Notes: generated from the letters alone by a model not told the origin. Counted from the stretch's first letter, positions 6,607 through 40,216 are shown. The stretch: DNA of 64,000 nucleotides from Dehalogenimonas sp. W (GCF_037094495.1 NZ_CP146612.1:496001-560000), one strand, 5' to 3'. Numbers and translations are program-made.

Positions 6607-7533
6607 ATAGAAGCATTTATTACATGGATGGGCGACCACGGCTGGCGAATCCTGCTGATAATCGTCGGCTCTTACTTCATCTACAAGACCCTCAAGGTTT
6701 TTGTCAGCCGCCTGGTTCAACGCTATATTGAATACCGCACCCGTACCCATCAGGCCAAGGAAGACAGCATCCGCCGGGTTAAAACCATCACCGGCATGAT
6801 CGTCGGTGCGCTGGGTGTAGTCGTGGCTACCCTGGCCGGATTTATGATTCTGTCGGAATTCAATATTGATATCGGCCCGCTGATCGCCAGCGCCGGTGTG
6901 GCTGGCGTGGCTATCGGTTTCGGTGCCCAAAGCCTGATTAAGGACGCGCTCAACGGCTTGTTCATCGTGCTGGAAGACCAGTTTAATAATGGCGACGTAG
7001 TAAAAATTGCCGGCATTTCCGGCCTGGTGGAAGATCTTAATATGCGCCGGACAGTGCTGCGGGATCTTGACGGCATCGTCCATATCATCCCCAATGGGCA
7101 GATAATTACTGTTTCCAACTACACACGGGAATGGGCGCGGGTTAATCTGAACGTGCCGGTAGCCTACGCGACTGACCTGGACCGGGCGGCTGAGGTCATC
7201 AACCGGGTCGGCAAGGAACTGGCTGCCGATGCCGAATTCGGCCCGATGATAATCAGTTCTCCCCAGGTTCTGCGCATTGATAAATTTGGCGACTCCGGCA
7301 TAGAAATCAAAATCTTAGGCGATGTTAAACCGATGAAGCAGTGGATGGTTACCGGAGAACTTCGCCGTCGGCTGAAAAAGGCCTTTGATCAGGAAGGCGT
7401 AGAAATACCCTTCCCTCACACCAAGCTGTTTTTTGACGATGCGCAACTGGCCAACATCGCCGGTCTGGCACGGCTGGCGGAGGTGAAAGCAACCACCACA
7501 GATAAACCAACTGATGAGTCGCCCGTAGAGTAA
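6607..7533 (+). CDS. Mechanosensitive ion channel MscS family
   Basis: A small-conductance mechanosensitive channel: three membrane segments, then the pore helix SAGVAGVAIGFGAQSLIKDALNGLFIVLEDQF and the beta domain GDVVKIAGISGLVEDLNMRRTVLRDLDG. The first ATG is at 6628 but has no ribosome site. A GAGGGA site at 6592-6597 sits nine bases before an ATA at 6607 that is in frame and would add seven residues (EAFITWM...). I give the ATA as the probable start, and this is uncertain. A TATAAT lies at 6544-6549. It probably protects cells against hypo-osmotic shock. Confidence 0.9.
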   Translation: MEAFITWMGDHGWRILLIIVGSYFIYKTLKVFVSRLVQRYIEYRTRTHQAKEDSIRRVKTITGMIVGALGVVVATLAGFMILSEFNIDIGPLIASAGVAGVAIGFGAQSLIKDALNGLFIVLEDQFNNGDVVKIAGISGLVEDLNMRRTVLRDLDGIVHIIPNGQIITVSNYTREWARVNLNVPVAYATDLDRAAEVINRVGKELAADAEFGPMIISSPQVLRIDKFGDSGIEIKILGDVKPMKQWMVTGELRRRLKKAFDQEGVEIPFPHTKLFFDDAQLANIAGLARLAEVKATTTDKPTDESPVE

Positions 7534-7686
7534 TTATCAAACTCTGGCAACCGTAACCTGCATTTACCTCAAGCACTTATTGCCCAGCCCCAACCAAAAT
7601 ACCGTCCCACGTCAAGCATTTCCTCCGGGGGCTTGAAGAGTAAGGTATAATGTAAGGGTAATATTTATTCCCCTTGAGGTTATACT

Positions 7687-9882
7687 ATGGTTGTCGCTCG
7701 TCGCCCGGAATTTCAAAGGAATGAATCCGCCACCACCGGCGGGGAGGTCAATACTCCCATCAATTTCAGCGATGCCGCTCAGGCACTGAAGATTACTAAT
7801 CGCTTTTTGGAAATCGCGAACCGACATTCCACCATGCAACCGCTACTGGATGAATTCGCCGCTGAAATCAAAGCCATATGCAGTTGCGAAGCCATAGGCA
7901 TCAGGGTGCTGGACAATAAGGGCAATATCCCCTACCAGTCATGTACCGGATTCAGCCCGGAGTTCTACCGTGAAGAGAGCGATATCTCCATCCATACGGA
8001 AACATGCGTCTGTCCGGACGTCATTACCGGGCTGCGCAAACCTCATCTTCTTCCATACTATACCGGTAATGGGTCCTTCTGCATGGGCAGTATTGCGCGG
8101 CACCGGGCCAACAATACTCAGTCAGTTATTACGAAACCCGGCCGCGGCGCCTGCCGCCGATCCGGTTATGACACGCTGGTACTGGTGCCCATCCGTCAGG
8201 GAGACCGTGTGCTCGGCCTCTTTCACCTGGCGGACCCCAAACCCGACATGGTGCCGGCCGAAATGGTCAGCCTGCTGGAAAAAGTGGGCCTCCAACTGGG
8301 AACGGCACTGGTCAGGGTACAGATTGAAGAGGAACTGCAGAAGTATCGTTGCCGGTTGGAAGACATGGTGCTGCAACGTACCAGCGAGTTGCAGCGGCTG
8401 AATGACAAATTGACGGCCGAAAGCGCAGAGCGTCAGAGACTGACAGAATCATTGCACCAGAGCGAAGACAAGTATCGGTCACTCTTCAACGCTGCCTCGG
8501 ATGCCATTTTTGTACACTTCCCCACTTCTGATAATCATGCAGGGAAATTTGCCGAGGTCAACGAGGCAGCCTGTACGATGCTGGGCTATACCCACGAAGG
8601 AATACGACAACTCCGCCCGTCGGACATCATTGACGCCGACAAAGCCCCCATGACTCCGGAACAAGCGATTATAAAACTCAGGAAATCTGGAAAACAGTTA
8701 CTGGAATCAGCTTTTATAACCAATAACGGTAACAGCCTGCCCGTGGAAATTAACCAACACCTTTTTGAATTCCAAGGGATACCGGCAGTACTCACCATCG
8801 CCCGAGATATAACCGAACGCAAAAACCTGGAAGCCGCTATGCAGGAGAGCCGGGAAAAGTTACGGCTGATGCTCAACCAAATGCCCTGCATCCTTTGGGC
8901 CATGGACACAGATTTAAGATATACATCAGCGTCGGGACTGGGTCTCAAACTGACCGGCAGAAAACCAGAAGACCTGGTGGGCAAAACTATTTTTGAGTAT
9001 TCATCTTCATTTTCTGAAAATTCGCCTCTGGTAAAGGCCTTCAGGAAAACTATCAAAGGCAAATCAAACGTATGCGAACAGACCTCAATGTTGAATGATC
9101 GGACCATGCTGGTTCATATGGAGCCGATGTACGATACTCAAAACACGATTTGCGGTATTGTTGGAGTCAGCGTCGATATTACTGAAACTAAACGTACCGA
9201 AACAAGATTAAAAACGCAGGAAGAAAAAATCAACCAATTGATTAAAGCCTATATCCACGCTCAGGATGAGGAGCGGGAATGGCTGTCTCTTGAGGTCCAT
9301 GACCGGGTAATCCAGCCTATGTCCGCGGTTTTCCAGCAATTACAGGGGGTTTTACCGGCTGCTGAAGAATGTTCCGGTGTCAGCCACGGCCTGAACCGCG
9401 CGATTGAACTTACCGATGAGGTTATCCGAGAAACCCGCGCCGTAATGAAAGAACTGTACCCTTCAACTTTAGGGCGCTACGGACTACCCAAAATCATCAG
9501 TGAGGAACTCAAACACATGAAGGCTGATATCGGCTGCCGGGTCAAATTTGACCTTGACTCTGGGTACATCACCGTGCCTTTAATGGAAAAAACCTTGTAC
9601 CGGTTGTTTCATGAGTCCCTGCTGAATATCCGTAAATATGCCGCGGCCTCGCACGTCTCAGTCGCACTAAAGCAATCCGATGATTATGTCACCCTCCGGA
9701 TTGCCGACAACGGGGTCGGCTTTGAACCTGAAAACATGCCGGATAAACCGGGCGGGCTGGCCTCCATGCGGAGGCGGACTGAGCTATTAGGCGGTACGTT
9801 TGAGATCAAGAGCCGCCCCGGCATGGGAACCATCATCATTTCCCACCTGCCTTGTAATAAACAGGTTTTGGAGACCACATAA
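7687..9882 (+). CDS. Soluble GAF-PAS-PAS sensor histidine kinase (HisKA_3 type)
   Basis: 731 residues and no membrane segment. An N-terminal GAF-like domain (about 30-200) carries seven cysteines at 65, 67, 86, 107, 109, 132 and 156, a pattern that suggests a redox or metal/cluster sensor. A coiled coil is followed by two PAS domains (about 265-385 and 390-505), a HisKA_3 dimerisation helix (SLEVHDRVIQ, His538 predicted phosphoacceptor) and an HATPase domain (IADNGVGFEPEN, GGLASMRRRTELLGG). The stop overlaps the next gene's ATG (TAATG), so the pair is co-translated with its response regulator. It lies directly upstream of an rdhA, as PAS-containing kinases often do in Dehalococcoidia, so control of that rdhA is a reasonable inference. 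Confidence 0.93.
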   Translation: MVVARRPEFQRNESATTGGEVNTPINFSDAAQALKITNRFLEIANRHSTMQPLLDEFAAEIKAICSCEAIGIRVLDNKGNIPYQSCTGFSPEFYREESDISIHTETCVCPDVITGLRKPHLLPYYTGNGSFCMGSIARHRANNTQSVITKPGRGACRRSGYDTLVLVPIRQGDRVLGLFHLADPKPDMVPAEMVSLLEKVGLQLGTALVRVQIEEELQKYRCRLEDMVLQRTSELQRLNDKLTAESAERQRLTESLHQSEDKYRSLFNAASDAIFVHFPTSDNHAGKFAEVNEAACTMLGYTHEGIRQLRPSDIIDADKAPMTPEQAIIKLRKSGKQLLESAFITNNGNSLPVEINQHLFEFQGIPAVLTIARDITERKNLEAAMQESREKLRLMLNQMPCILWAMDTDLRYTSASGLGLKLTGRKPEDLVGKTIFEYSSSFSENSPLVKAFRKTIKGKSNVCEQTSMLNDRTMLVHMEPMYDTQNTICGIVGVSVDITETKRTETRLKTQEEKINQLIKAYIHAQDEEREWLSLEVHDRVIQPMSAVFQQLQGVLPAAEECSGVSHGLNRAIELTDEVIRETRAVMKELYPSTLGRYGLPKIISEELKHMKADIGCRVKFDLDSGYITVPLMEKTLYRLFHESLLNIRKYAAASHVSVALKQSDDYVTLRIADNGVGFEPENMPDKPGGLASMRRRTELLGGTFEIKSRPGMGTIIISHLPCNKQVLETT

Positions 9883-28402: not shown

Positions 28403-28497
28403 TGGCGGAGGGGAAGGGAATCGAACCCCCCGCGGCGGTTTGCGCCGCCGCCTACGGTTTTGAAGACCGCGAGGCCCACCAGAGCCTATCCGCCTCC
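28403..28497 (-). tRNA. selC: tRNA-Sec (anticodon UCA)
   Basis: 95 nt, with the long extra arm (GGCGGCGG...CCGCCGC region) and a T arm GTTCGATTC. The anticodon loop CTTCAAA carries UCA (28463-28461 on the minus strand), reading UGA. The 3' CCA is encoded. The acceptor stem is of the long bacterial tRNA-Sec type with one apparent C-C mismatch. It lies 36 bases upstream of selD, first in the sel locus. Confidence 0.95.
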
Positions 28498-28571
28498 ACT
28501 AGAGGGGTATTATAGCATAAGATATTGGGATTGACGCCAGTAGGTATTACCACTCAGGGTCAGTCAGGGTT

Positions 28572-28898
28572 TCATTTCCAAATCCGCCTGACTGCTTGAA
28601 CCCCCATCAGTAATCCGATAACGGCTAGAACGATAGGTATCATCACATACGATACGCCGTTCAACCACAGAATCAGGCCAAATACTACTAGGGTAATCCC
28701 GACAAATGCTTTGGTTAGTTCCGCGTTTATCCAATGGAGACCCGCCAGAAATAGCGCTAACCCCGGTAGACCGAAAAATACCCAGATAGCCACTACACCA
28801 GAGAATTCCACGCGTTCAACTGTCACCCATAAAGCCAGGGCAAGCATGGAGATTCCGGTAACAATGCTCGCTCCGATTTCAATTTTTCCCCGTTTCAA
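28572..28898 (-). CDS. Small four-span membrane protein, unknown
   Basis: 108 residues, almost entirely hydrophobic, four predicted spans. It contains the segment WVFFGLPGLALFLAGLHWI, which resembles the FGIPG...GxxLL motif of the paralogs at 32958-33317, 33908-34255 and 35547-36038. The start is TTG, overlapping the stop of the upstream gene (TTGA). It is the last gene in a run of coupled minus-strand genes from 31125 down. No function can be assigned. Confidence 0.65.
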   Translation of the reverse strand: MKRGKIEIGASIVTGISMLALALWVTVERVEFSGVVAIWVFFGLPGLALFLAGLHWINAELTKAFVGITLVVFGLILWLNGVSYVMIPIVLAVIGLLMGVQAVRRIWK

Positions 28899-29740
28899 AC
28901 CTGACTATCCTCCCGATACCCCGCTCGCCTCAACCAGTAATAGACACCCGCGCCAATCAATAACCCCGTTGCGATAATGCCGGCGTACATCAGCCACTGA
29001 CTCAAGGGAATGGGGATTGAGGTTACGTTAGGGTACATATGCACAATCTTACCGGTCTCAAGGTTGACCATCACTTCAAGACCTTTCACTGTGCCTTCAA
29101 GATAATATGTCTTCTCATCGCGATAAGGTGGGTTATATATGTCCCCTTTGAATTTATATTCTTTATTAAAGGTGAAAGTGATGAATACTCCCGGTCTGCC
29201 GGTATCTTCACCTCCTGAACGCGGCAACATCCCGTCCATCCGGGCAATATCGTAAGGTTTACCATCAAGAAATGCGGCAACCAACGGGTCAGCCAGCGCC
29301 AAGTCCAATCCCCGTTGTTCCTGAAATTCGGTCAGCGCCACCCGCCCCATGATAGGCAACTTGTCTATGCCGCTGTCTATCAGATAGTAACCGACAACCT
29401 TCGTGATTGAGCTATTAACGAAAACCATAAGCTGCGCAACCTCATGACCACGGAATTGGAAGCGCTCGGTGAAAACCAGCGTTATCTCAATTTCACCGGT
29501 TGGCACGGGTGGCGGCGGTGGCACTGTGGACTTTGAAAACTGTGGCCCGCTATATACATAAAGTTTTATATCAGCGATAATATACTGCCTTCCATCCAGC
29601 AGTTCCGCTACTTCTGCATTGCCCTCCGCAACAGCCAGCGCCTGGTCGACATCTTCATCCGAGACTTGTGCCGCAATCGTTATTGGAAAAGCGGCGGAGG
29701 TCATCATCATCAATATTAAAGTCGCAACAAGCCGTTTCAT
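28895..29740 (-). CDS. Secreted/anchored protein with duplicated PepSY-like domain
   Basis: About 281 residues from the ATG at 29740 that overlaps the previous stop (ATGA). Signal peptide (MKRLVATLILMMMTSAAFPI), two tandem repeats of about 110 residues, each starting QALAVAEGNAEVAELLDGRQYII or LALADPLVAAFLDGKPYDI and ending in beta strands, then a C-terminal membrane span. The protein is therefore external with a C-terminal anchor. The same domain appears once in the product of 34336-35142. I do not recognise an exact family; PepSY-like is a guess from the layout. Confidence 0.65.
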   Translation of the reverse strand: MKRLVATLILMMMTSAAFPITIAAQVSDEDVDQALAVAEGNAEVAELLDGRQYIIADIKLYVYSGPQFSKSTVPPPPPVPTGEIEITLVFTERFQFRGHEVAQLMVFVNSSITKVVGYYLIDSGIDKLPIMGRVALTEFQEQRGLDLALADPLVAAFLDGKPYDIARMDGMLPRSGGEDTGRPGVFITFTFNKEYKFKGDIYNPPYRDEKTYYLEGTVKGLEVMVNLETGKIVHMYPNVTSIPIPLSQWLMYAGIIATGLLIGAGVYYWLRRAGYREDSQV

Positions 29741-30231
29741 TTTCTGACGCTCCAGGCTTTTGGCAGAGACTTGGCCACTGTCCATGCCCCCAACCCCAGA
29801 AGTGCCGCTAAAAGAAGCAGTATGGCGCCGTACCAGGCAGACATTTCATAATTTATAACGAGGGCGCTGATACCGGGAATTATCAGCATCACCGCCGCCG
29901 TTGCCACCAGCGATGCCCCAAGCAGCGGCCGCCGCCGGGTAACCAGCCATGCTGCCGCCAAAGGCAAGGCGTAAACCAATCCGTAGCCGGAACCGCCATA
30001 TTTGAGTGTGACAAACACGGTGAAACCAAGAATAATCGCTGTTGGAACAGCTATGATTACCAGCCCCGCTTTCCTGAGTTGATGCCGCGCCGCTTCAACT
30101 TCATCCGTATCCTGAGAACGCTTGAACGCTCTGACTTTCAGCATTGAATACCGGAAACTGAGCAACAAAAGCAACCACAAGACTATCTGCGGTAGAAGGA
30201 TGAATAACATCTGTTGAGTAGCAGCGCTCAT
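29737..30231 (-). CDS. Membrane protein, unknown
   Basis: 164 residues from the ATG at 30231, chosen because it overlaps the preceding stop codon by four bases (ATGA). One N-terminal span, a polar stretch rich in charged residues (FKRSQDTDEVEAARHQLRK), then four to five further spans. It is part of a tightly coupled run with 30228-30785 upstream and 28895-29740 downstream. No recognisable domain. Confidence 0.65.
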   Translation of the reverse strand: MSAATQQMLFILLPQIVLWLLLLLSFRYSMLKVRAFKRSQDTDEVEAARHQLRKAGLVIIAVPTAIILGFTVFVTLKYGGSGYGLVYALPLAAAWLVTRRRPLLGASLVATAAVMLIIPGISALVINYEMSAWYGAILLLLAALLGLGAWTVAKSLPKAWSVRK

Positions 30232-30785
30232 GATTTGACCACCATCCCGAGGCATGAACCACCGAAAATTCCGGTCAAGCTCCATCCGAGTACATACATC
30301 GGAGTGAGCCCTGAATACAGGGGAGCAGTAACAAATTGTGCTATCCCGAATCCAAGAAGGCCCGCGATAGCTAGGCGAACAGCAAGACGCTTCCCATCCA
30401 AAACCATTCCTAAAGCTGCGCCTGTTCCTGCCCCGATTGCGGCACCTAAAAAGAACATGTGCCAGGTTTCTGTCCCGAAGCGGTCACTAAAAGATTCAAA
30501 TCCAATTGAAGTAAGTAAAACATACAGGGGTAAAATCATGGTGAAATAAACAATGATAAAACCGGAAGCTCCCCAAAATGCTAGAGAAGCTAGTTGTCTT
30601 TTTGTTATTTTTAACGATATGCCAAGTGCGATACCGCCAAAGGCCCCCATGAGCACCGGGATAAGCATGAGGGCTCCGGAAAATAGCCGTGCTCCGATGA
30701 AACCACCTAACCCGAAACCGACGGCTCCAAGTATTGTTGATTTTAAAAACTGCATTTTTAACTTTAGCCTGTCATTACCATTCAT
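30228..30785 (-). CDS. Glycine-rich multi-span membrane protein, unknown
   Basis: 185 residues with about five hydrophobic segments rich in Gly and small residues (GAVGFGLGGFIGARLFSGALML; GAAIGAGTGAALGMVLDGKRLAVRLAI). Such glycine patterning resembles permease-like or glycine-zipper membrane proteins. It overlaps the gene upstream (30775-31125) by 11 bases and the one downstream by four, so all are co-translated. Function unknown. Confidence 0.65.
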   Translation of the reverse strand: MNGNDRLKLKMQFLKSTILGAVGFGLGGFIGARLFSGALMLIPVLMGAFGGIALGISLKITKRQLASLAFWGASGFIIVYFTMILPLYVLLTSIGFESFSDRFGTETWHMFFLGAAIGAGTGAALGMVLDGKRLAVRLAIAGLLGFGIAQFVTAPLYSGLTPMYVLGWSLTGIFGGSCLGMVVKS

Positions 30786-31125
30786 TGTAAAACCGGAAAT
30801 TGTTATTCAATATGCTCAACAACAATGAGCCAATAAACAAGGAAAAGAGTATGTATGCCGTATATTTCATATAACTGAAAAATGGAAAACCACGATGTCT
30901 TTTATTGACTATCGCCAGAACGGTCAATATTCCTGCTACGCCGTTTCCTATCAAAAACCAGGTGAACCAGCTGCGATCATGACCGAACGTACCCGCTCCC
31001 CAAATAAAGCTGATAAAAACGAAATAGAAATATGCCAAAACGCTCGCGTAGCGCCAATAGTATGCGCTCACGATCAATAATATACTTAATATGCCTGTGA
31101 CGATGGCGAAACCTGTTAAAGTCAT
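30775..31125 (-). CDS. Small membrane protein, unknown (duplicated copy 1)
   Basis: 116 residues, four predicted spans, beginning MTLTGFAIVTGILSILLIVS. It is nearly identical over its first 95 residues to the product of 31887-32225, including AYYWRYASVLAYFYFVFI and RSWFTWFLIGNGVAGILTVL. The copies diverge at the C-terminus and in flanking DNA. It is followed by a coupled gene (30228-30785). Unknown function; the strong conservation of both copies suggests a recent duplication. Confidence 0.7.
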   Translation of the reverse strand: MTLTGFAIVTGILSILLIVSAYYWRYASVLAYFYFVFISFIWGAGTFGHDRSWFTWFLIGNGVAGILTVLAIVNKRHRGFPFFSYMKYTAYILFSLFIGSLLLSILNNNFRFYNEW

Positions 31126-31213
31126 CTCCGTCAGATACCCTCTTCGTTATTTCAACTTAACCCGGAGTTTCACGACCAAAGCGATAGAAATCATGAGTGG
31201 TGGAGTTCATTGT

Positions 31214-31474
31214 CTACTTGTCCTTTTTGTTTGCTGTGGTCTTTAAAACTATCAACGAAATCATAAATACTACTCCCGCCATTGCTGCGTTAATTATCGG
31301 CAACAGGCTCGGTTCGATACTGATAATTAGGCCCATATAACTGAAAAATATCACACCACTGGCGATTGCAGAGACAAGCACGTAGCCCTTTGCCCGTTTG
31401 ATCAACAGGTATATACAGACCGGAATCCAGCCGAAAGTGTAGGTCAAATACAATCCAAGACCGAATACGTTCAT
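31214..31474 (-). CDS. Small membrane protein, unknown
   Basis: 86 residues with three predicted spans and a basic C-terminus (TTANKKDK). It lies between 31493-31741 and 30775-31125 on the same strand. It has no counterpart in the second duplicated unit at 31887-32480. No recognisable family. Confidence 0.55.
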   Translation of the reverse strand: MNVFGLGLYLTYTFGWIPVCIYLLIKRAKGYVLVSAIASGVIFFSYMGLIISIEPSLLPIINAAMAGVVFMISLIVLKTTANKKDK

Positions 31475-31492
31475 CTTTTTATCGCCTTTTCA

Positions 31493-31741
31493 TCATTTCA
31501 AAATAATCCTGGCTTTTTTAGCCAATGCGAATGAGATGATTGACCCTGTAATGCCTATTCCGACAAAGGCGGCATTACCAAATCCCAACCCAAATCCAGA
31601 AATCAAGGTCCAGACACCAACTACAATTAGAAATACAAAATAGCCCAAACTAAGTTGAATGTAGTGAGGTTTCTTGACTGCCAATACCAACAGTACAACA
31701 CTGTAAGCCGCAACTCCGGAGATAACAAGCAAAGCGCCCAT
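31493..31741 (-). CDS. Small membrane protein, unknown (intact copy; degenerate copy at 32267-32480)
   Basis: 82 residues, three spans, with the segment KKPHYIQLSLGYFVFLIVVGV. The region 32267-32480 encodes a frameshifted relative (RKPYYIHFELGYFLFLVIAWV), so this gene belongs to a duplicated unit. It is the first gene of the minus-strand run and faces the divergent leader copy at 31784-31858. Function unknown. Confidence 0.6.
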   Translation of the reverse strand: MGALLVISGVAAYSVVLLVLAVKKPHYIQLSLGYFVFLIVVGVWTLISGFGLGFGNAAFVGIGITGSIISFALAKKARIILK

Positions 31742-31783: not shown

Positions 31784-31858
31784 GCTTATGATACAATTGG
31801 CGAAGGGTTAATACATGGGCCTTTAGGCCTAAAAAAGAGCGAAAAAGAGGAATTGTTG
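31784..31858 (+). repeat. Kinase leader repeat, copy A
   Basis: First of five copies of a plus-strand leader: GCTTATGATACAATTG (a -10-like box), a short variable spacer, GGGCCTTTAGGCC hairpin, an A-rich stretch with AAGAGG ribosome site and a TTG start codon followed by AACAT. After that, similarity to the kinase gene at 37386 ends. The other copies are at 33737, 35265, 36306 and 37325. Confidence 0.8.
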
Positions 31859-31886
31859 AACATTCCCCGGTCTCCCAATAATCTGA

Positions 31887-32225
31887 CTAAAAACGGAATA
31901 ATGTATCCAACATGGCCATAATAAACGAGATAATAATCAGTGAAAAGAGAATATAAGCCGTATATTTCATATAACTGAAAAATGGAAAACCATGATGTCT
32001 TTTATTGACTATCGCCAGAACGGTCAATATTCCTGCTACGCCGTTTCCTATCAAAAACCAGGTGAACCAGCTGCGCTCATGACCGACCGTGCCTGCTCCC
32101 CAAATAAGGCCGATAAAAACGAAATAGAAGTACGCCAAAACGCTCGCGTAGCGCCAATAGTATGCGCTCACGATCAATAATATGCTCAATATACCCGTCA
32201 TGATGGCTAATTCCGTTAGGGTCAT
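31887..32225 (-). CDS. Small membrane protein, unknown (duplicated copy 2)
   Basis: 112 residues, nearly identical to the protein of 30775-31125 for the first 95 positions and different at the C-terminus (IISFIMAMLDTLFRF). It is bounded by leader copy A on the plus strand and by a degenerate partner gene (32267-32480). Transcription is minus-strand. The nucleotide match extends into the upstream region, as expected of a tandem duplication. Confidence 0.65.
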   Translation of the reverse strand: MTLTELAIMTGILSILLIVSAYYWRYASVLAYFYFVFIGLIWGAGTVGHERSWFTWFLIGNGVAGILTVLAIVNKRHHGFPFFSYMKYTAYILFSLIIISFIMAMLDTLFRF

Positions 32226-32266
32226 CGCTTTGAGATACCTCTCTCAAATCAGCTTAATCCGGAATT

Positions 32267-32480
32267 TCACCGCCAAACTAACGATCCGGCAACGCTTATT
32301 CCGACGATTGATAGATTGACTACTCTAAACCCGTCGAAAAGCCCACCCACGACCCAGGCTATGACCAGAAACAGAAAATATCCCAGCTCAAAATGAATGT
32401 AATACGGTTTTCGGAGTGATAAGACCGGCAATACGACGCCGTAAAGTGCAAAGGGGGAGATAAATGATTAAAGCGCCCAT
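32267..32480 (-). pseudogene. Frameshifted copy of the 82-residue membrane protein gene
   Basis: The ATG at 32480 reads MGALII like the intact gene at 31493-31741, then one frameshift near 32450 is needed to continue as ALYGVVLPVLSLRKPYYIHF and on to a TGA at 32267. Similarity to the intact copy runs through nearly the whole length. It is therefore a decayed duplicate, adjacent to copy 2 of the 116-residue gene as in the original order. Confidence 0.7.
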
Positions 32481-32574
32481 CTGAAGGGTCCTTTCCGTTC
32501 GCACCGCTTACCCACCGCCGTTTCCTCTCCCCGCCTTCTTTTCAAGAAGCGGCTTTCCAATAATGTGAATTCGC

Positions 32575-32940
32575 TCATCCAGGCGCTTTTCTATACAAAT
32601 AAACGTGCCAGGCTAGACCTGCATAGTAGAACGCCATATTCAAGAATGTAGCTTGCGAGAAGCTTCTATTCAATAGCCATGGATCGCCCATCATGCCTAC
32701 CCATGCTGCGAAGATAAGGGGGCCATTTATAATAGCCGCGAATACCCCGCCAATAAAGGGCAAACGCATGGCTGTCCATAATCCGAATAGCATTGGAGAA
32801 ACAATAATGAAACCATACACGGGATCTGTAAGAAATCCATAGCTAAGTTTAGAAATACTTAATCCGGCAAACACCTGTAATACAGATGCAAACAGCATTA
32901 ATAATAATCCAAAATTGCGTGCCTTGCGGGATTTATCCAT
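32575..32940 (-). CDS. Small membrane protein, unknown
   Basis: 121 residues from the ATG at 32940, which has GGAAGG upstream. A short basic N-terminus (MDKSRKARN) is followed by three to four spans and a basic end (YLYRKAPG). It begins 17 bases after 32958-33317 ends and is probably co-transcribed with it. Nothing recognisable. Confidence 0.6.
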   Translation of the reverse strand: MDKSRKARNFGLLLMLFASVLQVFAGLSISKLSYGFLTDPVYGFIIVSPMLFGLWTAMRLPFIGGVFAAIINGPLIFAAWVGMMGDPWLLNRSFSQATFLNMAFYYAGLAWHVYLYRKAPG

Positions 32941-32957
32941 CAGTATGCCTTCCAAAT

Positions 32958-33317
32958 TTATACATTCTTCCCGTTCCGCCGCCTATCCTTCGCCAGCAAC
33001 TGCACACCATGAAACATCAGTATTATTCCCGGTATTCCAAAGAAAAATATTGCGAAATAGTCCAATAGAGGGTTTTCGCTAACCTTCATAAGAAAATATG
33101 CTGCAACGAAAGCCGTTACGCTCCAGAAAAACGCCCATAGTGCCTCATGAATTTGATATGCCGCATAACTTATCAACAATAATCCTATGAATCCGGTTAT
33201 AAAGCCCCAGCCCCCGATTGGGATAATGCTGAGTTTCCCAGCCATTAGAGCCTGCGACGCAATCAAAAGGGCAATTCCGATCGTGCCCGTTATCGCTATT
33301 CTTTGACCTTTTCCCAT
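32958..33317 (-). CDS. Small membrane protein of a local paralog family
   Basis: 119 residues, four spans. Contains GLLLISYAAYQIHEALWAFFW and FFFGIPGIILMFHGVQLLAKDRRR. The same pattern (LLISYAxYQxHExLxAFFW ... GIPGxxLxxxGxxLLxK) occurs at 33908-34255 and, more diverged, at 35547-36038, so these genes form a local family. They are all on the minus strand and in the block punctuated by kinase leader repeats. Function unknown. Confidence 0.6.
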   Translation of the reverse strand: MGKGQRIAITGTIGIALLIASQALMAGKLSIIPIGGWGFITGFIGLLLISYAAYQIHEALWAFFWSVTAFVAAYFLMKVSENPLLDYFAIFFFGIPGIILMFHGVQLLAKDRRRNGKNV

Positions 33318-33355
33318 TTCACTCCACTCCGGCGATGCTCCCTAAGATTTGAGCG

Positions 33356-33679
33356 CTAATTTTTAGATAGTATTAGAATCACTGCCCCAATCAGCATAAG
33401 TGAAGCGAAAGCTAGCATTAACGAACCTATCAACCGGCTGGCGTCATAATTGTTAAATATAAGAGCTAACGATGCTGCAATGGCAAGTAAAGATAGAATA
33501 ATCGCCAGGCCTCCTCCAATACGCGGACTATTCAATGCCATTAGCGAAGCCATAAGAAACCCATAACTCAGAATCGCTCCTGACCAAAAAGGTCCACCTA
33601 TTCCCACAGCCACAACAACGGATACAGATGAGGTAACCCACATTATGGTTCTCCCGGATTTTCGGGGAATGGTTATCAT
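33356..33679 (-). CDS. Small membrane protein, unknown
   Basis: About 107 residues from the ATG at 33679, which has GGAG seven bases upstream; an ORF extends to 33736 into leader copy B. A basic N-terminus (MITIPRKSGRTI) is followed by three hydrophobic segments. It is transcribed divergently from leader copy B. No family recognised. Confidence 0.5.
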   Translation of the reverse strand: MITIPRKSGRTIMWVTSSVSVVVAVGIGGPFWSGAILSYGFLMASLMALNSPRIGGGLAIILSLLAIAASLALIFNNYDASRLIGSLMLAFASLMLIGAVILILSKN

Positions 33680-33736
33680 TGAGATGCTCCAACTGGCCAT
33701 CCGCCAATGCTTATGGAGAATGCCAAGCCTTTCCAC

Positions 33737-33810
33737 GCTTATGATACAATTGGCAAAAGCCCCGCAACAGGGCCTTTAGGCCCATAAAAGAGCTAAAAAG
33801 AGGAATTTTG
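33737..33810 (+). repeat. Kinase leader repeat, copy B
   Basis: GCTTATGATACAATTGG, variable spacer with CGCAACA, GGGCCTTTAGGCCC hairpin, then AAGAGGA and TTG. The kinase-like reading frame (LNIREMGRH) continues for about 9-10 codons, then departs. Copies B and C also share upstream sequence (GAATGCcaagCCTTTCC-like). Confidence 0.8.
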
Positions 33811-33907
33811 AACATCAGGGAGATGGGACGCCACCCCAGCCGGGTCAATCGCCGTCACCTGCCTTCAGGTTCATATCGTTGTACACCATGCAAGTCATTG
33901 TCGTTCC

Positions 33908-34255
33908 CTATTTTGAGGATGCCCTCCGGCGTTTGAACAACAGCCGAAGGCCAAACACTAACAGCCCTGCCCCTGGGATTCCCATCAGCAATATGGCCAA
34001 TATATCCGTTCCGTAATTTTCGCTGATACTTAGCCAATGAAGTGCGGATGCCAGAAACAGACTTCCCCAGAAAAAGGCCAGCAGTACTTCATGAACTTGG
34101 TATAGAGCATAGCTTATCAGCAACAGGCCTAATAAACCTGGTACGATGCCCAAAACCGCATAGAAACCTAGCTCGCCGACCATCCACAGCCATGACAAGG
34201 CAATCAGCGCGATTCCGGAAGCGGCGATAAATAAATATCTTTGCAATTTATTCAC
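33908..34255 (-). CDS. Small membrane protein of a local paralog family
   Basis: 115 residues, four spans; LLGLLLISYALYQVHEVLLA and LLMGIPGAGLLVFGLRLLFK align with the product of 32958-33317. A basic tail (RRRASSK) suggests a cytoplasmic C-terminus. The gene stands alone between leader copy B and 34336-35142. Function unknown. Confidence 0.6.
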   Translation of the reverse strand: MNKLQRYLFIAASGIALIALSWLWMVGELGFYAVLGIVPGLLGLLLISYALYQVHEVLLAFFWGSLFLASALHWLSISENYGTDILAILLMGIPGAGLLVFGLRLLFKRRRASSK

Positions 34256-34335
34256 TTTGTAACTGCTTTATAGATTTTCAACTTTGCCGTTTTGCGTTTC
34301 ATTTTATCGTTCCTCTCTTATTGGTATATTATTAT

Positions 34336-35142
34336 CTATTGGAGCGGATATATTGCTACGATTTGTTGTCCGGTGGTGTCTATGACCAATACAAACTTAG
34401 ATACCATCCCGGAGAAATGATTGATCTTAGGCACGTATCTGGAGATACCCATCTTGCTTTCGTCATAGTCGAATGCGGGCAAAACAGCCTCTATATCGTA
34501 AGTTTTGTCGAACCATATCTCTAAAACAACACCAAGCTTAACGTTGTCTTCTGAACGCCAAGTGCCAATTCTTTTTTCTGGCGCGATCTCAAACTCTTTG
34601 TCAAAGAGAAGATTCTGAAGTGTTGAATCCACGGCTACTATAGCCAAGGCGCTTTCTTTGTCGGCTTTTGTTAATTCTGGGAGGGTTGGGCCATTATTGG
34701 GCTTTTTCAAGAAATTTTCGACTGTCTGGTTTTCAAGGTTGATGGTAAACGTGTACATATCATTGTGACCTATATAAAGCAAACCCGCATATTCTTTTAT
34801 GATGCTGGTATCTCGGGGTTCACTTTTTAACCATTCCATGATTTTGTCCGGTCCTAGTCCATTCATGAGCCTCGCGCCGACTTGAATTTCGACCTCGTAT
34901 TCAGTCTCTTCTAATAGGGGCTTTATCTTAATATCACTCATGACGATATGCTTCAACAATTCTTCCTGTCCGGTTGGCATTACGAAAAATGGCTCAAGAA
35001 CGAAGACATCCCCTTCGTTGGTTTTGGAGTTTTCTCCCAGAATAGCGCCCTGCAGAATGGCACCGCCGACTAGCAACAAGATGATCGTTGAACCGGCAAG
35101 GGCTGTCAAAAACGATTTTGAATTTACAAGTATTCTCTTCAC
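34336..35142 (-). CDS. Signal-anchored extracellular protein, PepSY-like domain
   Basis: 268 residues. One N-terminal membrane anchor (about 12-32), then a hydrophilic external part. The C-terminal half (ESALAIVAVDSTLQNLLFDK ... VVLEIWFDKTYDIEA ... SKFVLVIDTTGQQIVAIYPL) matches the domain duplicated in the protein of 28895-29740. It ends in a strand motif with ID-TGQ-IVAIYP like PepSY-type domains. It is divergent from leader copy C. Role unknown; the anchored external domain suggests sensing or binding. Confidence 0.6.
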   Translation of the reverse strand: MKRILVNSKSFLTALAGSTIILLLVGGAILQGAILGENSKTNEGDVFVLEPFFVMPTGQEELLKHIVMSDIKIKPLLEETEYEVEIQVGARLMNGLGPDKIMEWLKSEPRDTSIIKEYAGLLYIGHNDMYTFTINLENQTVENFLKKPNNGPTLPELTKADKESALAIVAVDSTLQNLLFDKEFEIAPEKRIGTWRSEDNVKLGVVLEIWFDKTYDIEAVLPAFDYDESKMGISRYVPKINHFSGMVSKFVLVIDTTGQQIVAIYPLQ

Positions 35143-35264
35143 GATTATTTCCTTTCACAATTTTATACCGGGATTTTGAACACTCTTTCACCTGTTCAAG
35201 TCTCATCACTACCTTTCTGTTGGGCTAACCACCAAGGCTTATGAGGAATGCTATGCCTTTCCTC

Positions 35265-35328
35265 GCTTATGATACAATTGGCAATAGCCCTGCAACAGGG
35301 CCTTTAGGCCCAAAAAAGAAATGATTTG
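35265..35328 (+). repeat. Kinase leader repeat, copy C
   Basis: GCTTATGATACAATTGG, a CTGCAACA spacer as in copy B, GGGCCTTTAGGCCC hairpin, AAAAAAGAAATGAT and TTG. It is continuous with the 46-codon kinase fragment that starts at 35326. Confidence 0.85.
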
Positions 35329-35466
35329 AACATCAGAGAGTTAGGAAGCCGCCTGATTACCGGGACATCCGGTGATTTGACCGCCGGTCGCCTCTATGAG
35401 ATGAAGCGCCTGGAATGGCTGTTCATCGGCGCCCGGTGGCTGTGGGTGTTTCGGGGCAACCGGTAG
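35326..35466 (+). pseudogene. Kinase 5' fragment (46 codons) with leader copy C
   Basis: From TTG the frame reads LNIRELGSRLITGTSGDLTA and onwards through MKRLEWLFIGARWLWV, closely matching the first 41 codons of the intact kinase at 37386. It then runs into unrelated sequence (FRGNR) and stops. It is a 3'-truncated copy, probably not functional. Confidence 0.85.
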
Positions 35467-35546
35467 AAACGACCAGCGTCAGTAGAGCGGGTAGCGTCAC
35501 CGAACCCCTCATGGTGATTAGCCGAGTCCCTTTTGCTATTGTCATT

Positions 35547-36038
35547 TCAGTCTCTTTGGCTATTCTTGTTTCGAGCAAACAAATGGACAGAGTAAATAAT
35601 CAACACTATCCCGGGTAGGCCCATGGCTAATACCGGAATCAGGATGTCACCGGTCCATCCCGCGGCGATCGCCCGCCACATCAAACCTAACCACATGACC
35701 CCAAATACAAGCGGAAGCAACGCCTTGTGAAGGTTGTAAGCTGCATAACCTAGTAAGCCCATTCCCGGGATACCCAATAATAAAACGATTCCTAAAACAC
35801 CCTCGGGATGCCCATATAAGTAATATACCCAGACTAGTCCCAAGAGAACTGTTCCCGCGTATAAAAATGGTAGGACTTGAAGGAATTTGTTATCCGTTTG
35901 ATGAGACCATATGCTGACCATAATCCATAGAAACCACAACAGCAATCCAATTGCAAAAATATGTGAAATAAGCCAAGCGAATATTAATATTGATAGCGCT
36001 ACGATGCCAATAAAAACCAGTTTATACGGTTTTCCCAT
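35547..36038 (-). CDS. Membrane protein of the local paralog family (longer form)
   Basis: About 163 residues from the ATG at 36038, which follows AGGAAG; the frame is open further up to 36134, through the large inverted repeat. About five spans. The second half has LLGIPGMGLLGYAAYNLHKALLPLVFGVMW and LAMGLPGIVLIIYSVHLFAR, matching the 32958 and 33908 family with an extra N-terminal pair of spans. A 15-bp perfect inverted repeat lies immediately upstream. Function unknown. Confidence 0.6.
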   Translation of the reverse strand: MGKPYKLVFIGIVALSILIFAWLISHIFAIGLLLWFLWIMVSIWSHQTDNKFLQVLPFLYAGTVLLGLVWVYYLYGHPEGVLGIVLLLGIPGMGLLGYAAYNLHKALLPLVFGVMWLGLMWRAIAAGWTGDILIPVLAMGLPGIVLIIYSVHLFARNKNSQRD

Positions 36039-36065
36039 AGACAAACTTCCTAATTTCAGCATGAT

Positions 36066-36109
36066 GGGGTTATAAGGGGTTTCACACGTTTCACACCCCT
36101 TATAACCCC
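36066..36109. repeat. Large perfect inverted repeat
   Basis: GGGGTTATAAGGGGT (36066-36080) and ACCCCTTATAACCCC (36095-36109) pair over 15 bp with a 14-base loop that itself contains TTTCACACGTTTCAC. It lies between a 3' gene fragment and the start of 35547-36038. It could be a leader structure, a recombination site or a remnant of a mobile element end. Confidence 0.7.
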
Positions 36110-36140
36110 TGACACAAAGAAAGCGCGTTAGCAAAGATTA

Positions 36141-36305
36141 TTAGGGCACATAAATCCAATCCGCATAACCATCACTATGAACATATTCATTGCCTGATAC
36201 CCACCGGGGTGATTCCTCATTCCACATCCACCAATAGTTACGGTAGACATTATCCCACCCCACAGTGTCTGCAATTTTGGATGTTATTGCATATTGAGCA
36301 TCCAC
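36141..36305 (-). pseudogene. Orphan C-terminal fragment of an unrecognised protein
   Basis: The minus-strand frame, open from about 36330 through the edge of leader copy D, reads AQYAITSKIADTVGWDNVYR, then a Trp-rich tail (NYWWMWNEESPRWVSG, EYVHSDGYADWIYVP) and stops at 36141. The upstream part is replaced by the leader repeat. It looks like the 3' end of a real gene left by a rearrangement. I do not recognise the family. Confidence 0.5.
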
Positions 36306-36368
36306 GCTTATGATACAATTGACGACAGGTTAATACATGGGCCTTTAGGCCCAAAAAGAAGTGATTTG
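36306..36368 (+). repeat. Kinase leader repeat, copy D
   Basis: GCTTATGATACAATTGACGA, GGTTAATACAT spacer, GGGCCTTTAGGCCC hairpin, AAAAAGAAGTGAT and TTG. Almost the same as copy E, which drives the intact kinase. Confidence 0.85.
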
Positions 36369-36800
36369 AACATCAGAGACTTAGGACGCCGCCTGATGAC
36401 TGGGGCACCATTTGAGGCGCCCCAAGGCCACCTTTATGAGCTGAAATGTCTGGAATGGCTGTTCATCGGTGCCCGTTGGCTGTGGGTGCCGGCGATCTTC
36501 CTGCTGGCCTGGATGCAAAAGCCGTCGTCGGATACCGCTATCGTGTCAATCGGATTAGTAACCGCCGCAGTCAATACGGCAGCTACGTTCTTGAATATCA
36601 AAATCAGGACGCTGGGGATTCAGCGATCCCTCGGCACCGCCATGCTGGTTATTGATTCTTTGGTAGCCTGGGTCTTGATCCTTCTTTTCGTCAGCGATTT
36701 TTATACCGCCGCCTATGCCGGTTTCCTGTTTGTGGCAATGGAAGGGAGCATCCGCTACGGACTTAAGGGCAGTTTGGTTATGGCCGCCGCTGAGGCCTAG
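36366..36800 (+). pseudogene. Kinase 5' fragment (144 codons) with leader copy D
   Basis: The fragment begins LNIRDLGRRLMTGAP and covers the whole membrane-sensor start of the intact kinase, colinear with it at a fixed offset of 1,020 bases and with no indels. From 36641 to 36790 the two differ at one base in 150, whereas the earlier part is clearly more diverged. After MAAA the sequence departs and stops (EA). No kinase core remains. It could still be expressed as a truncated membrane protein. Confidence 0.85.
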
Positions 36801-36922
36801 ATTAGTTGTTAGAACAAGGTAACAACTGATACCGTCATTAGGGGCAGTTAGGCGTCTAACAGTGGCCCCATAGCGAGGACGATCTGGCCAATAATTAAAC
36901 CGAATTTAATATATAGAACAGA

Positions 36923-37183
36923 CTATACTCTAGCTTTTCCGATTGCGATAAGAACCGCTAAAATGGCAAGACCCATAATTGCTGGAGTGATGTAGATGAA
37001 AACCGCGTCGTATTCTCCAGATTGGTCTACGAGGTATAGCCCAAGAAGGACCACGAGTATGAAATAAGCTGCCCCAATTCGGGTAAACCATCTATCCTTT
37101 CGGGATAGTATTAGTAATAGTACGCCAGCCAAAAATATACTGATATTAAATATAACACCAAAAATCATAGCCCAAATTAGCAT
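36923..37183 (-). CDS. Small membrane protein, unknown
   Basis: 86 residues with three spans (MLIWAMIFGVIFNISIFLAG; YFILVVLLGLYLV; IMGLAILAVLIAIG) and a short polar loop. It lies between the truncated kinase copy D and leader copy E, on the opposite strand, repeating the layout of the rest of the block. AGGAAG precedes the ATG. Function unknown. Confidence 0.55.
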   Translation of the reverse strand: MLIWAMIFGVIFNISIFLAGVLLLILSRKDRWFTRIGAAYFILVVLLGLYLVDQSGEYDAVFIYITPAIMGLAILAVLIAIGKARV

Positions 37184-37324
37184 GTCGTTCTTCCTCCATT
37201 ATGTTACCTGTTCTAGTCGCATCCCCACTTTTCCTTTGGCCAATTAGCCTTATATAAACCCGTTTCTGAGGCGGAGTGGCAGTGCTCCGGCCAATTGTCA
37301 TAGAGAATACCAAGCCATTTCTTT

Positions 37325-37388
37325 GCTTATGATACAATTGACGACAGGTTAATACATGGGCTTTTAGGCCCAAAAAAGAAGTGATTTG
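37325..37388 (+). repeat. Kinase leader repeat, copy E (functional copy)
   Basis: GCTTATGATACAATTGACGA, GGTTAATACAT spacer, GGGCTTTTAGGCCC hairpin, AAAAAAGAAGTGAT and the TTG start of the full kinase. It presumably contains the promoter of the kinase/regulator operon. Confidence 0.85.
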
Positions 37389-38639
37389 AACATCAGAGAG
37401 TTAGGAAGCCGCCTGATGACCGGGGCATCCGGTGAGGTGACCGCCGGTCATCTATATGAGATGAAGCGTCTGGAATGGCTTTTCATCGGCGCCCGGTGGC
37501 TGTGGGTGCCGGCGATCTTCCTGCTGGCCTGGATGCAGAAGCCGTCGTCGGATATCCCCATAATATCAATCGGATTAATAACTGCCTCGGTCAATGCGGC
37601 CGCCATGGTCTTTAACCTCAGAATCAAGACGCCAAAGTCACAGCAGATCCTCGGCACCTCCATGCTGGTTATTGATTCTTTAGTAGCCTGGGTCTTGATC
37701 CTTCTTTTCGTCAGCGATTTTTATACCGCCGCCTATGCCGGTTTCCTGTTTGTGGCAATGGAAGGGAGCATCCGCTACGGACTTAAGGGCAGTTTGGTTA
37801 TGGCCGCCGCCTTCGCAGTCGGACTTCTGGGTGCTTATATCTTCCGGGATGCGGTTTACGGCGTTCGTTTCAGTTATACCGGCTATACCTTTTGGGCTCT
37901 GCTTGTTTTTCTTGTAGCGGTACCCATGGGGCTGATCGTAGATGAGGGGCAAAGACAGCGTCGCCGAAGCGAAACCTATCTGAAAGAAAAAACGCTTCTT
38001 GAGGAGCGCCAGCGTATCGCCCGTGACATGCACGATAATGTCCTCAAAACCCTTCATGGTCTGTCGCTGGAGGCGACAGTGCTGGAGCGAAGGCTGGGCG
38101 ACAACACAGAGTCTTCCGTGAAAGATACAATCAGTTATATCGGTGAAGTCTGTCAGCAAACCAGCCGGGAGATCAGAGAAGTCATTCTTGACCTTCGGAA
38201 TGAGCCTGGAAACGTTGGGATCGGGGCGATAATTTCCAGCATACTTGACCGATGGAGCGTCAGAACAGATATCAAGATTGAATTTGAACTGATTGGGGAA
38301 GACCGCATTGTGGCTGATGCGACGGCGCATCAACTGCGCAACATCATCTCCGAAGCCCTGACCAACGTTGAACGCCATGCCGAAGCCTCACGGGTGGCAG
38401 CGACCCTAACCCTAACACATGACTCATTATCGCTGGTAATCCACGACAATGGCCACGGCTTTGGAGAAGGCGCAAGGGAACCTGATGTAAATATCGCTGC
38501 CGGAAGGTTAGGGCTTGCCGGAATGAAAGAAAGGGTATCATTGATGGGGGGCAGTTTTCAGCTTGAAAGTGCCGGCAGGGGCACCAGGCTGATCATTATC
38601 TTACCGCTTAACCGGGAGACTTCAGATGAGCCGAATTAA
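37386..38639 (+). CDS. Membrane sensor histidine kinase (HisKA_3 type)
   Basis: 417 residues from a TTG start. Five to six membrane spans (about 31-185) make up the sensor region, with no external domain. A HisKA_3 region follows (LLEERQRIARDMHDNVLKTL; predicted phosphoacceptor His216), then an HATPase domain (IISEALTNVERHAEASRV; IHDNGHGFGEG; GRLGLAGMKERVSLMGG). It overlaps the response regulator start by 14 bases. Four degraded copies of its leader and 5' end lie upstream. The stimulus is unknown; the compact multi-span sensor suggests a membrane or lipid-phase signal. Confidence 0.93.
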   Translation: MNIRELGSRLMTGASGEVTAGHLYEMKRLEWLFIGARWLWVPAIFLLAWMQKPSSDIPIISIGLITASVNAAAMVFNLRIKTPKSQQILGTSMLVIDSLVAWVLILLFVSDFYTAAYAGFLFVAMEGSIRYGLKGSLVMAAAFAVGLLGAYIFRDAVYGVRFSYTGYTFWALLVFLVAVPMGLIVDEGQRQRRRSETYLKEKTLLEERQRIARDMHDNVLKTLHGLSLEATVLERRLGDNTESSVKDTISYIGEVCQQTSREIREVILDLRNEPGNVGIGAIISSILDRWSVRTDIKIEFELIGEDRIVADATAHQLRNIISEALTNVERHAEASRVAATLTLTHDSLSLVIHDNGHGFGEGAREPDVNIAAGRLGLAGMKERVSLMGGSFQLESAGRGTRLIIILPLNRETSDEPN

Positions 38640-39288
38640 GGTGCTCATAGTGGACGATAACTTTGTAGCTAGGCGCGGACTACGCAGCTTTTTGGAGATG
38701 GAAAAGGACATCTCGGTGCTTGGAGAAGCCGCCAACGGCAACGATGCCGTCTCATGGGTAAAGGAGAATACACCGGATGTTGTTCTTATGGATGTGCGCA
38801 TGCCCGGCATGGATGGGATAAAAGCTACCAGTGAGCTACTGAATCTAAAACCAGAAGTCAAAATACTCATGCTAACCGTCGTGGAAGACCAGACCACTAT
38901 CTTACGGGCACTGCTGGCTGGAGCAGCCGGATATCTGGTTTACGGTCAGTTCACCCCCGATGAACTGTCGCTGGCTGTCCGAGCCGTCGCTGCCGGTCAT
39001 ACCAAAGTGACGCCGCCGGTCAGCCATGAACTGCTGGAAAAAATCCGCCGGAGCAATTCGCAGATTCATAGTATTGCCGAATCCGAAATCACTGAGCCGT
39101 TAACAGTCAGAGAGGTTGAAATATTAGGATTGATTGCCGCCGGAGCGGGCAATCAGGAGATCGGACAGACTCTGTACATTGAAGAAAAAACAGTCAAAAA
39201 TCACATTAATGTCATCTACTCAAAATTACAGATCAAGAGCCGTTACGAAGCAATAAGCTATATGCTACGGCATAAGTCCAACTCATGA
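38626..39288 (+). CDS. NarL/LuxR-family response regulator
   Basis: 220 residues: receiver domain (KVLIVDDNFVARRGLRSFLE, Asp56 in VVLMDVRMP) and a LuxR-type HTH (LTVREVEILGLIAAGAGNQEIGQTLYIEEKTVKNHINVI). It overlaps the membrane kinase gene, its obvious partner. Its targets may include the leader repeat copies, each of which carries a promoter-like box, but nothing in the sequence proves this. Confidence 0.94.
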   Translation: MSRIKVLIVDDNFVARRGLRSFLEMEKDISVLGEAANGNDAVSWVKENTPDVVLMDVRMPGMDGIKATSELLNLKPEVKILMLTVVEDQTTILRALLAGAAGYLVYGQFTPDELSLAVRAVAAGHTKVTPPVSHELLEKIRRSNSQIHSIAESEITEPLTVREVEILGLIAAGAGNQEIGQTLYIEEKTVKNHINVIYSKLQIKSRYEAISYMLRHKSNS

Positions 39289-39376: not shown

Positions 39377-40216
39377 ATGATCAAGATTTCCATCCAGGGA
39401 TCCCGCGGTTCCTTCCATGATATCGTCGCCCGCAAGAAGTTTCCCGGAGACTCCGAAATCATTGAGAGCGAGACCTTCAAGCAGGTCTTTGATGATGTTC
39501 ACAAGGGCGTATCGGACTACGGTGTGGTTGCTATTGAGAACTCTATCTACGGCTCCTTTCTGGATAACTATGACCACCTGCTGAAATACGATACCCGTAT
39601 TGTCGGCGAGGAATATCTGCGTATTGTGCTGAACCTCATCGCCCTGCCGAATACTAAAATTGAGAATATTACCGAAGTCTATACCCACCCAATGGCCATG
39701 AATCAGGCGGAGGAATGGCTGGAGAAGCATCCCAAAATGCAGCGCATTGAAACCGATGACACCGCCGCCGCCGTCCGGTTGATTAAAGAAGATGATATGC
39801 ATACCGCTGCGGCGATTGGTTCCGTATTAGCGGCTGAAATTTACGGCATGAAGGTCATCGCTAAAGATATTGAAACGGAAAAGAAGAACTATACCCGCTT
39901 CCTTATCATCGCCCGGCCCGACGCCCCGTATGATCTGGATGCCGATAAAACATCGCTGGTTATCCGAGCCAAAAATATCCCCGGTGCCCTCTATAATGTC
40001 CTTAAGTGTTTTAACGATGAGGACATCAACCTGTCTAAGATTGAGAGCCGTCCCATCATCGGCAAGAGTGCCTGGGACTACTATTTTTACCTGGACTTTG
40101 AAAAAGGGCTGAACGCCCCGGCTACCCAGCGAGCGCTGAAGGGATTGGAAAAAGTTGCCTCCATGATCAAGATATTGGGGACATACCGCCGCGATGACAA
40201 GGTAGATGCAGAATAG
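39377..40216 (+). CDS. pheA: Prephenate dehydratase
   Basis: 279 residues. The catalytic PDT domain (ISIQGSRGSFHDIVARKKF; YGVVAIENSIYGSFLDNYDH; VYTHPMAMNQAEEWL; DDTAAAVRLIKED) is followed by a C-terminal ACT domain (KTSLVIRAKNIPGALYNVLKCFNDEDINLSKIESRPI) that senses phenylalanine in the family. It converts prephenate to phenylpyruvate in phenylalanine synthesis. CAGGAGGG precedes the ATG. Its stop codon overlaps the probable start of the downstream transporter. Confidence 0.95.
   Translation: MIKISIQGSRGSFHDIVARKKFPGDSEIIESETFKQVFDDVHKGVSDYGVVAIENSIYGSFLDNYDHLLKYDTRIVGEEYLRIVLNLIALPNTKIENITEVYTHPMAMNQAEEWLEKHPKMQRIETDDTAAAVRLIKEDDMHTAAAIGSVLAAEIYGMKVIAKDIETEKKNYTRFLIIARPDAPYDLDADKTSLVIRAKNIPGALYNVLKCFNDEDINLSKIESRPIIGKSAWDYYFYLDFEKGLNAPATQRALKGLEKVASMIKILGTYRRDDKVDAE

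Follow-up and report, generated by a model that had tools for sequence, protein, structure and literature searches.

A probable membrane-gene cassette array in Dehalogenimonas sp. W, built by capture at the 5' end of a sensor kinase gene

A growing array of membrane-gene cassettes, placed under one membrane-sensing two-component system and built by capture at the 5' end of the kinase gene, is probably what lies between a tRNA-SeC gene and pheA in Dehalogenimonas sp. W. The window analysed here is a stretch of 64,000 nucleotides (GCF_037094495.1, NZ_CP146612.1:496001-560000), in which positions are counted from the first letter. The model starts from features that can be observed directly: the copies of a leader and their geometry, a site that is occupied, partially occupied or empty depending on the genome, a mosaic kinase fragment, and the deep conservation of an operator-like element together with the HTH domain of this particular response regulator.

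Five copies of the leader are located at 31784-31830, 33737-33783, 35265-35311, 36306-36352 and 37325-37371, all on the plus strand, in agreement with a preliminary description of this DNA. The constant part of the leader consists of TATGATACAATTG, exactly 17 nt, and the palindrome GGGCCTTTAGGCCC; in copy 1 the box is at 31784-31799 and, after the 17-nt spacer, the palindrome (GGGCCTTTAGGCCT) is at 31817-31830. With at most one mismatch, the 16-mer of the box, GCTTATGATACAATTG, is found five times in the 1.77-Mb genome, always at the array, and the control gave no matches; the palindrome, searched in the same manner, is also found five times genome-wide, always inside the leaders, as compared to three matches of the reversed-pattern control. 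Altogether eight leaders are available from three species (G001 and G005 in addition to that of the window, G000), of which only about 5-6 are independent. All eight share 13 invariant nt in the box, and the distance from the start of the box to that of the palindrome is exactly 33 nt in each. The 17-nt spacer, on the other hand, differs more strongly, with identities as low as 12-35% when the two leader types are compared, and no conservation is seen in the left flank. Identity is 98% for leaders 4 and 5. Directly to the left of each of the eight leaders there is a gene on the minus strand, or the remnant of one. An Rfam search of the leader gave nothing near the gathering score.

Leader 5 precedes an intact sensor histidine kinase gene (37386-38639, plus strand; 417 aa), whose product has about 5 TM helices followed by HisKA_3 and HATPase_c domains. 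The adjoining response regulator (38626-39288, plus strand) has a receiver and a LuxR/GerE HTH domain, and is the proposed binder of the palindrome. PF07730, PF02518, PF00072 and PF00196 all scored above cut-off, i.e. the pair is a two-component system of the NarL/LuxR type. As LiaS, NarX, NarQ or UhpB the kinase obtained 69-80 bits as opposed to curated NCBIfam cut-offs of 408-578, which places the pair outside the LiaFSR, NarXL and UhpBA equivalogs, and a scan of genome contigs found only distant kinases. The orphan leaders are followed by truncated copies of the kinase gene. Counted from the TTG start, the similarity extends over 8 nt in copy 1, about 28 nt in copy 2 (TTG at 33808), 41 codons in copy 3 (35326-35448, plus strand), 141 codons or 424 nt in copy 4 (36366-36789, plus strand) and all 417 codons in copy 5, so the earlier count of 2, 9-10, 41 and 141 codons and full length was right. 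The preliminary description also took the ordered nesting of these fragments as evidence. The increasing order is weak evidence by itself, since it has a 1-in-24 chance of arising at random, and it is not significant alone.

The genes between the leaders are on the minus strand and code, as described earlier, for small membrane proteins, for most of which 2-6 TM helices are predicted; the set includes two pseudogenes (32267-32480 and 36141-36305). The cassette to the left of leader 1 (30228-31741) contains m185, m116, m86a and m82, and that of leader 2 (31887-33736) contains m112, the first pseudogene, m126a, m119 and m126b. The cassettes to the left of leaders 3, 4 and 5 are made up of m115 and m268 (33908-35142), m195 and m54y (35547-36305) and m86b (36923-37183), respectively. 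The second pseudogene, m54y, retains the 54 C-terminal codons of a secreted-type gene that is intact in G001 (219 aa), and the cut coincides exactly with the left edge of the leader 4 box. Pfam and NCBIfam searches gave no name for any of the cassette proteins. They form few and diverged families, i.e. m112/m116, m119/m115/m195 (m115 was modelled as four helices), m82/m54x/m86b and m182/m126b.

The variable locus is bordered by selD and tRNA-SeC on the left (minus strand; the tRNA is at 28404-28498, with selD beyond it) and by the kinase/response-regulator pair and pheA (39377-40216) on the right. The preliminary description had proposed that relatives be compared for gain or loss of cassettes, and such differences are indeed found: at one syntenic site there are no leaders in G006, one in G005, two in G001 and five in the window, and the gene sets differ. 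In G006, a member of the same genus, the site can be considered empty: the interval between pheA and selD is just 857 bp, and nothing but the tRNA was recognised in it. In G005, m86a and m82 have orthologs to the left of the single leader. In G001, m182 stands to the left of the first leader, and m112, an intact m54x, m126a, the 219-aa gene and a 304-aa m268-like gene stand to the left of the second. In four further genomes of the genus (G002, G003, G004 and G007) the borders are far apart and there is no close kinase. The tRNA-SeC gene adjoins selD/selA, also at locus L075, and is conserved through the genus. We considered this tRNA as an integration site and rejected it, as the island is located 5' of it and inspection of the other border by eye revealed no copy of its end.

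Sequence comparison of the cassettes points to exchange between species. The region 31880-32952 is 93% identical to G001, intergenic DNA included, and the similarity drops abruptly at 32952; between 32503 and 32952 the identity is 94-100% in every 50-nt step and 99-100% over most of them. Since the flanking genes are only about 70-73% identical, this region is the result of a recent between-species exchange. Cassette exchange has also affected the leftmost, nominally oldest position of the array. The genes m82, m54x and m182 and the copy 3 kinase fragment are closer to their counterparts in other genomes than to their paralogs within the array. This does not hold for m112 and m116, which carry a conversion tract.

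The operator-like composite TAYAAT-19 nt-GGGYYTTWRGGSCY was searched without mismatches in 393 genomes of the class and in G140. It was found five times in the genome of the window, twice in G001, once each in G005, G024 and G140, and nowhere else among these genomes. Three further matches with one mismatch in the class were attributed to chance, given that the reversed pattern matched about as often or more often. In both G024 and G140 the composite precedes a gene that fuses the membrane N-terminus of the kinase directly to a LuxR HTH, skipping the kinase and receiver parts: the N-terminus is about 40% identical over 194-215 aa, and the HTH is 58-59% identical to that of the response regulator in the window. 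Here too, a minus-strand gene with a hydrophobic N-terminus is found to the left of the composite. On the other hand, we did not find the palindrome before relatives with separate kinase and regulator genes (31-41% identity), whose HTH has a different C-terminal stretch. The sensor and the HTH are the only parts shared by the fusion and the system of the window, which ties the palindrome to that HTH. Since the exact composite accompanies only this regulator/HTH, fused homologs included, the palindrome is most likely the response regulator's own operator, located between the kinase and the divergent membrane-gene cassette. The fusion genes (G024 L041, 1368-2228; G140 L093, ORF 6962-7822 of the reverse complement) represent a one-component version of the same regulator, and they come from two different families of the order.

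The direction of the promoter is a separate question. The stretch TATGATACAAT is readable as a -10 element on both strands, as TATGAT/TACAAT on one and as TATCAT on the other. If TATCAT is the minus-strand -10, the centre of the palindrome is computed to be at -42.5, which we take to be the position of a class II activator; if TATGAT is the plus-strand -10, the centre is at about +25. From these two positions, we infer that the cassettes would be activated by the regulator and that the effect on the kinase would be negative or neutral. The TATAAT-19 nt spacing that is shared with G024 and G140 would suit a rightward promoter of the regulator as well as a leftward one. A sigma-70 scan gave no excess over shuffled sequences, with only copy 1 scoring, on the plus strand; a terminator scan gave no excess over shuffles either.

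The clearest trace of the recombination itself is found in the copy 4 fragment, which is a mosaic with respect to the intact kinase: there are 54 differences in nt 1-274 and a single one in nt 275-424, up to the break (LR 43). The dS between copies 4 and 5, calculated for codons 1-95, is 0.37, equal to that between G000 and G005. This is exactly the pattern expected if an incoming and a resident kinase had crossed over near codon 91 and the resident had been joined illegitimately at its codon 141; plain conversion is an alternative for the near-identical tract. Capture would need an extra conversion event, because leaders 4 and 5 are 98% identical and codons 1-91 are not. A duplicated tract next to the break with diverged sequence upstream is present at copy 4/5. 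Of the four junctions, only this one shows the signature of one-sided homology clearly. The copy 3 fragment has 97% nucleotide identity to the kinase of G005 as opposed to 93% to the intact kinase of its own genome, a modest difference over 124 nt.

We suggest the following mechanism for the growth of the array. The leader would be a copied control region shared by the kinase gene on its right and the divergent membrane gene on its left, holding a -10-like box and, at a fixed distance, a palindrome bound by the system's own LuxR-type response regulator. Incoming DNA from relatives would have the form membrane cassette-leader-kinase 5' part, and would integrate at its right end through a homologous crossover within the kinase gene and at its left end through illegitimate joining. 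The resident kinase would be truncated by the integration, its leader and 5' fragment would stay behind, the new kinase would be intact again, and each old leader would remain the promoter and operator of the cassette on its left. Between-species exchange, gene conversion and deletion would later rework the array. The leaders, then, would have been kept because the membrane genes on their left use them. The binding of the regulator, the leftward promoter activity, the recombination route and this selective reason are the parts of the model that we infer. Repeated cassette capture at the kinase 5' end, as put forward in the preliminary description, largely stands, based on gain and loss in the relatives, the recent cassette transfer and the copy 4/5 mosaic; the nested order as such is only weak evidence for it. 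It is not needed that the leader be re-created each time, since this is better read as operator and promoter arriving with each kinase 5' end. We tentatively extend the model to a self-extending regulon, in which the 5' end of the kinase gene serves both as a homologous landing site and as a carrier of the operator, so that each uptake renews the kinase and adds a controlled membrane cassette. If this speculation is true, the orphan leaders and kinase stubs are a readable, ordered record of the former resident kinases.

Could the leaders be just the promoter of the kinase and a 5'-UTR hairpin, with the orphan copies being dead leftovers and the membrane genes using other promoters? An RNA hairpin in the kinase leader is possible: each of the three variants of the palindrome is a C to T change that keeps G-U pairing in the plus-strand RNA (3/3), the element is always just upstream of a regulator start, also in G024 and G140, and the -10 (TACAAT/TATAAT) is at the same distance in all. 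There is no need, however, for a UTR hairpin to keep the same distance to the -10, and nothing is conserved at the rightward -35 position. Moreover, the orphan leaders 1-3 and G001-A, in which the kinase is reduced to 3-41 codons, keep the box and the palindrome (at most one change per 27 nt) even though their spacers have diverged. We consider this explanation somewhat doubtful.

Local tandem duplication followed by decay is unlikely, in our view. Here a unit of membrane gene, leader and kinase would have been duplicated in place, the kinases would have eroded with age, leaving the shortest one leftmost, and the membrane genes would have diverged. Fragment length does decrease from right to left, and there are local paralogs, namely m112/m116 (84% aa identity), m119/m115 (42%) and m82/m54x (41%). 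However, the genes mostly differ between cassettes, and one tandem duplication of several genes is no adequate explanation, given that the majority of the cassette genes are either unrelated or no more than 25-42% alike; a simple tandem duplication had also been dismissed earlier, and on this point we agree. Furthermore, m54x and m82 are nearer to their counterparts in other species (78% and 72%, respectively) than to each other, apart from the stretch beside the break, the distance of the copy 4 fragment to copy 5 equals that to another species, the copy 3 fragment resembles the kinase of G005 more than that of its own genome, and the cassette at 31880-32952 was recently shared with G001. A third explanation, that the leader is an integron- or Xer-like site of site-specific recombination for cassette insertion, would account for the abrupt loss of similarity at the left edge of the box (L4/L5 and L1/G001-B) and for the cut of m54y exactly at this edge. 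Yet the junctions in the kinase are at varied positions (8, 28, 123 and 424 nt) rather than at one site, there is no recombinase gene in or beside the array as there would be in an integron, and the element is also found in single-copy loci without an array (G005, G024 and G140), so we regard it as highly improbable.

The proposed array can be compared to other loci that grow by displacement. In the orphan immunity-gene arrays of Vibrio cholerae type VI secretion, the resident gene is replaced when a module comes in, while remnants and partner genes stay in order, and homology-facilitated illegitimate recombination as well as ordinary between-strain exchange were proposed (PMC5361080). Like these arrays and the Rhs orphan 3' ends, the locus in the window has ordered remnants, with truncated kinase copies beside an intact one and non-homologous modules in between. 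In contrast, the displaced gene is a sensor kinase, the part that is kept is a 5' end with a control region, and the genes collected are uncharacterised membrane proteins instead of immunity genes. In blp/gallocin-type loci, a highly specific repeated motif precedes every operon regulated by the adjacent two-component system (PMC8545106). The layout is similar here, as the two-component system adjoins its putative targets and one specific motif, the putative binding site of the regulator, is found before every cassette and, apart from the fused homologs, nowhere else in the searched genomes. The DNA-binding domain of BlpR is of the LytTR type and its motif is a direct repeat, whereas here a LuxR HTH is combined with a palindrome, and a fragment of the kinase gene is still attached to each operator copy. 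The HisKA_3 kinase with a LuxR regulator is reminiscent of LiaFSR/NarL-type systems, and a membrane-sensing, autoregulated layout is plausible, although, unlike in LiaFSR, no liaF homolog was seen in the locus. Judged by sequence only, TATGATACAAT also resembles the bidirectional bacterial promoters that share a symmetric -10 (PMC12825309). In a limited literature search, we did not meet a regulator whose own 5' end is landing site and operator carrier combined. The model suggests a concrete route of regulon expansion, in which target genes bring a ready-made operator along, as they enter at the control region of the regulator itself. It also gives a candidate operator for an uncharacterised two-component system, backed across families by the fused one-component homologs, and suggests that a small-genome bacterium has recombined with other species at this locus.

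A few cassette proteins deserve a further remark. The m268 protein (34336-35142) and its 304-aa counterpart in G001 are secreted or anchored; m268 has one TM helix and an extracytoplasmic domain, modelled with two similar alpha/beta repeats that are weakly similar to cystatin/PepSY-type propeptides. Its fold search was weak, the best hits being amine-oxidase domains (E 5e-3), with the vibriolysin propeptide ranked lower. The m296 protein (28895-29785) may be a distant relative of m268. Finally, relatives of m185 and of the four-helix m115/m119 family occur together at a leaderless locus in G002 (L080, 4775-6425) and in G007 (L082, 4505-5450), which is a possible source of cassettes; in G002 three m115-like genes stand in a row.
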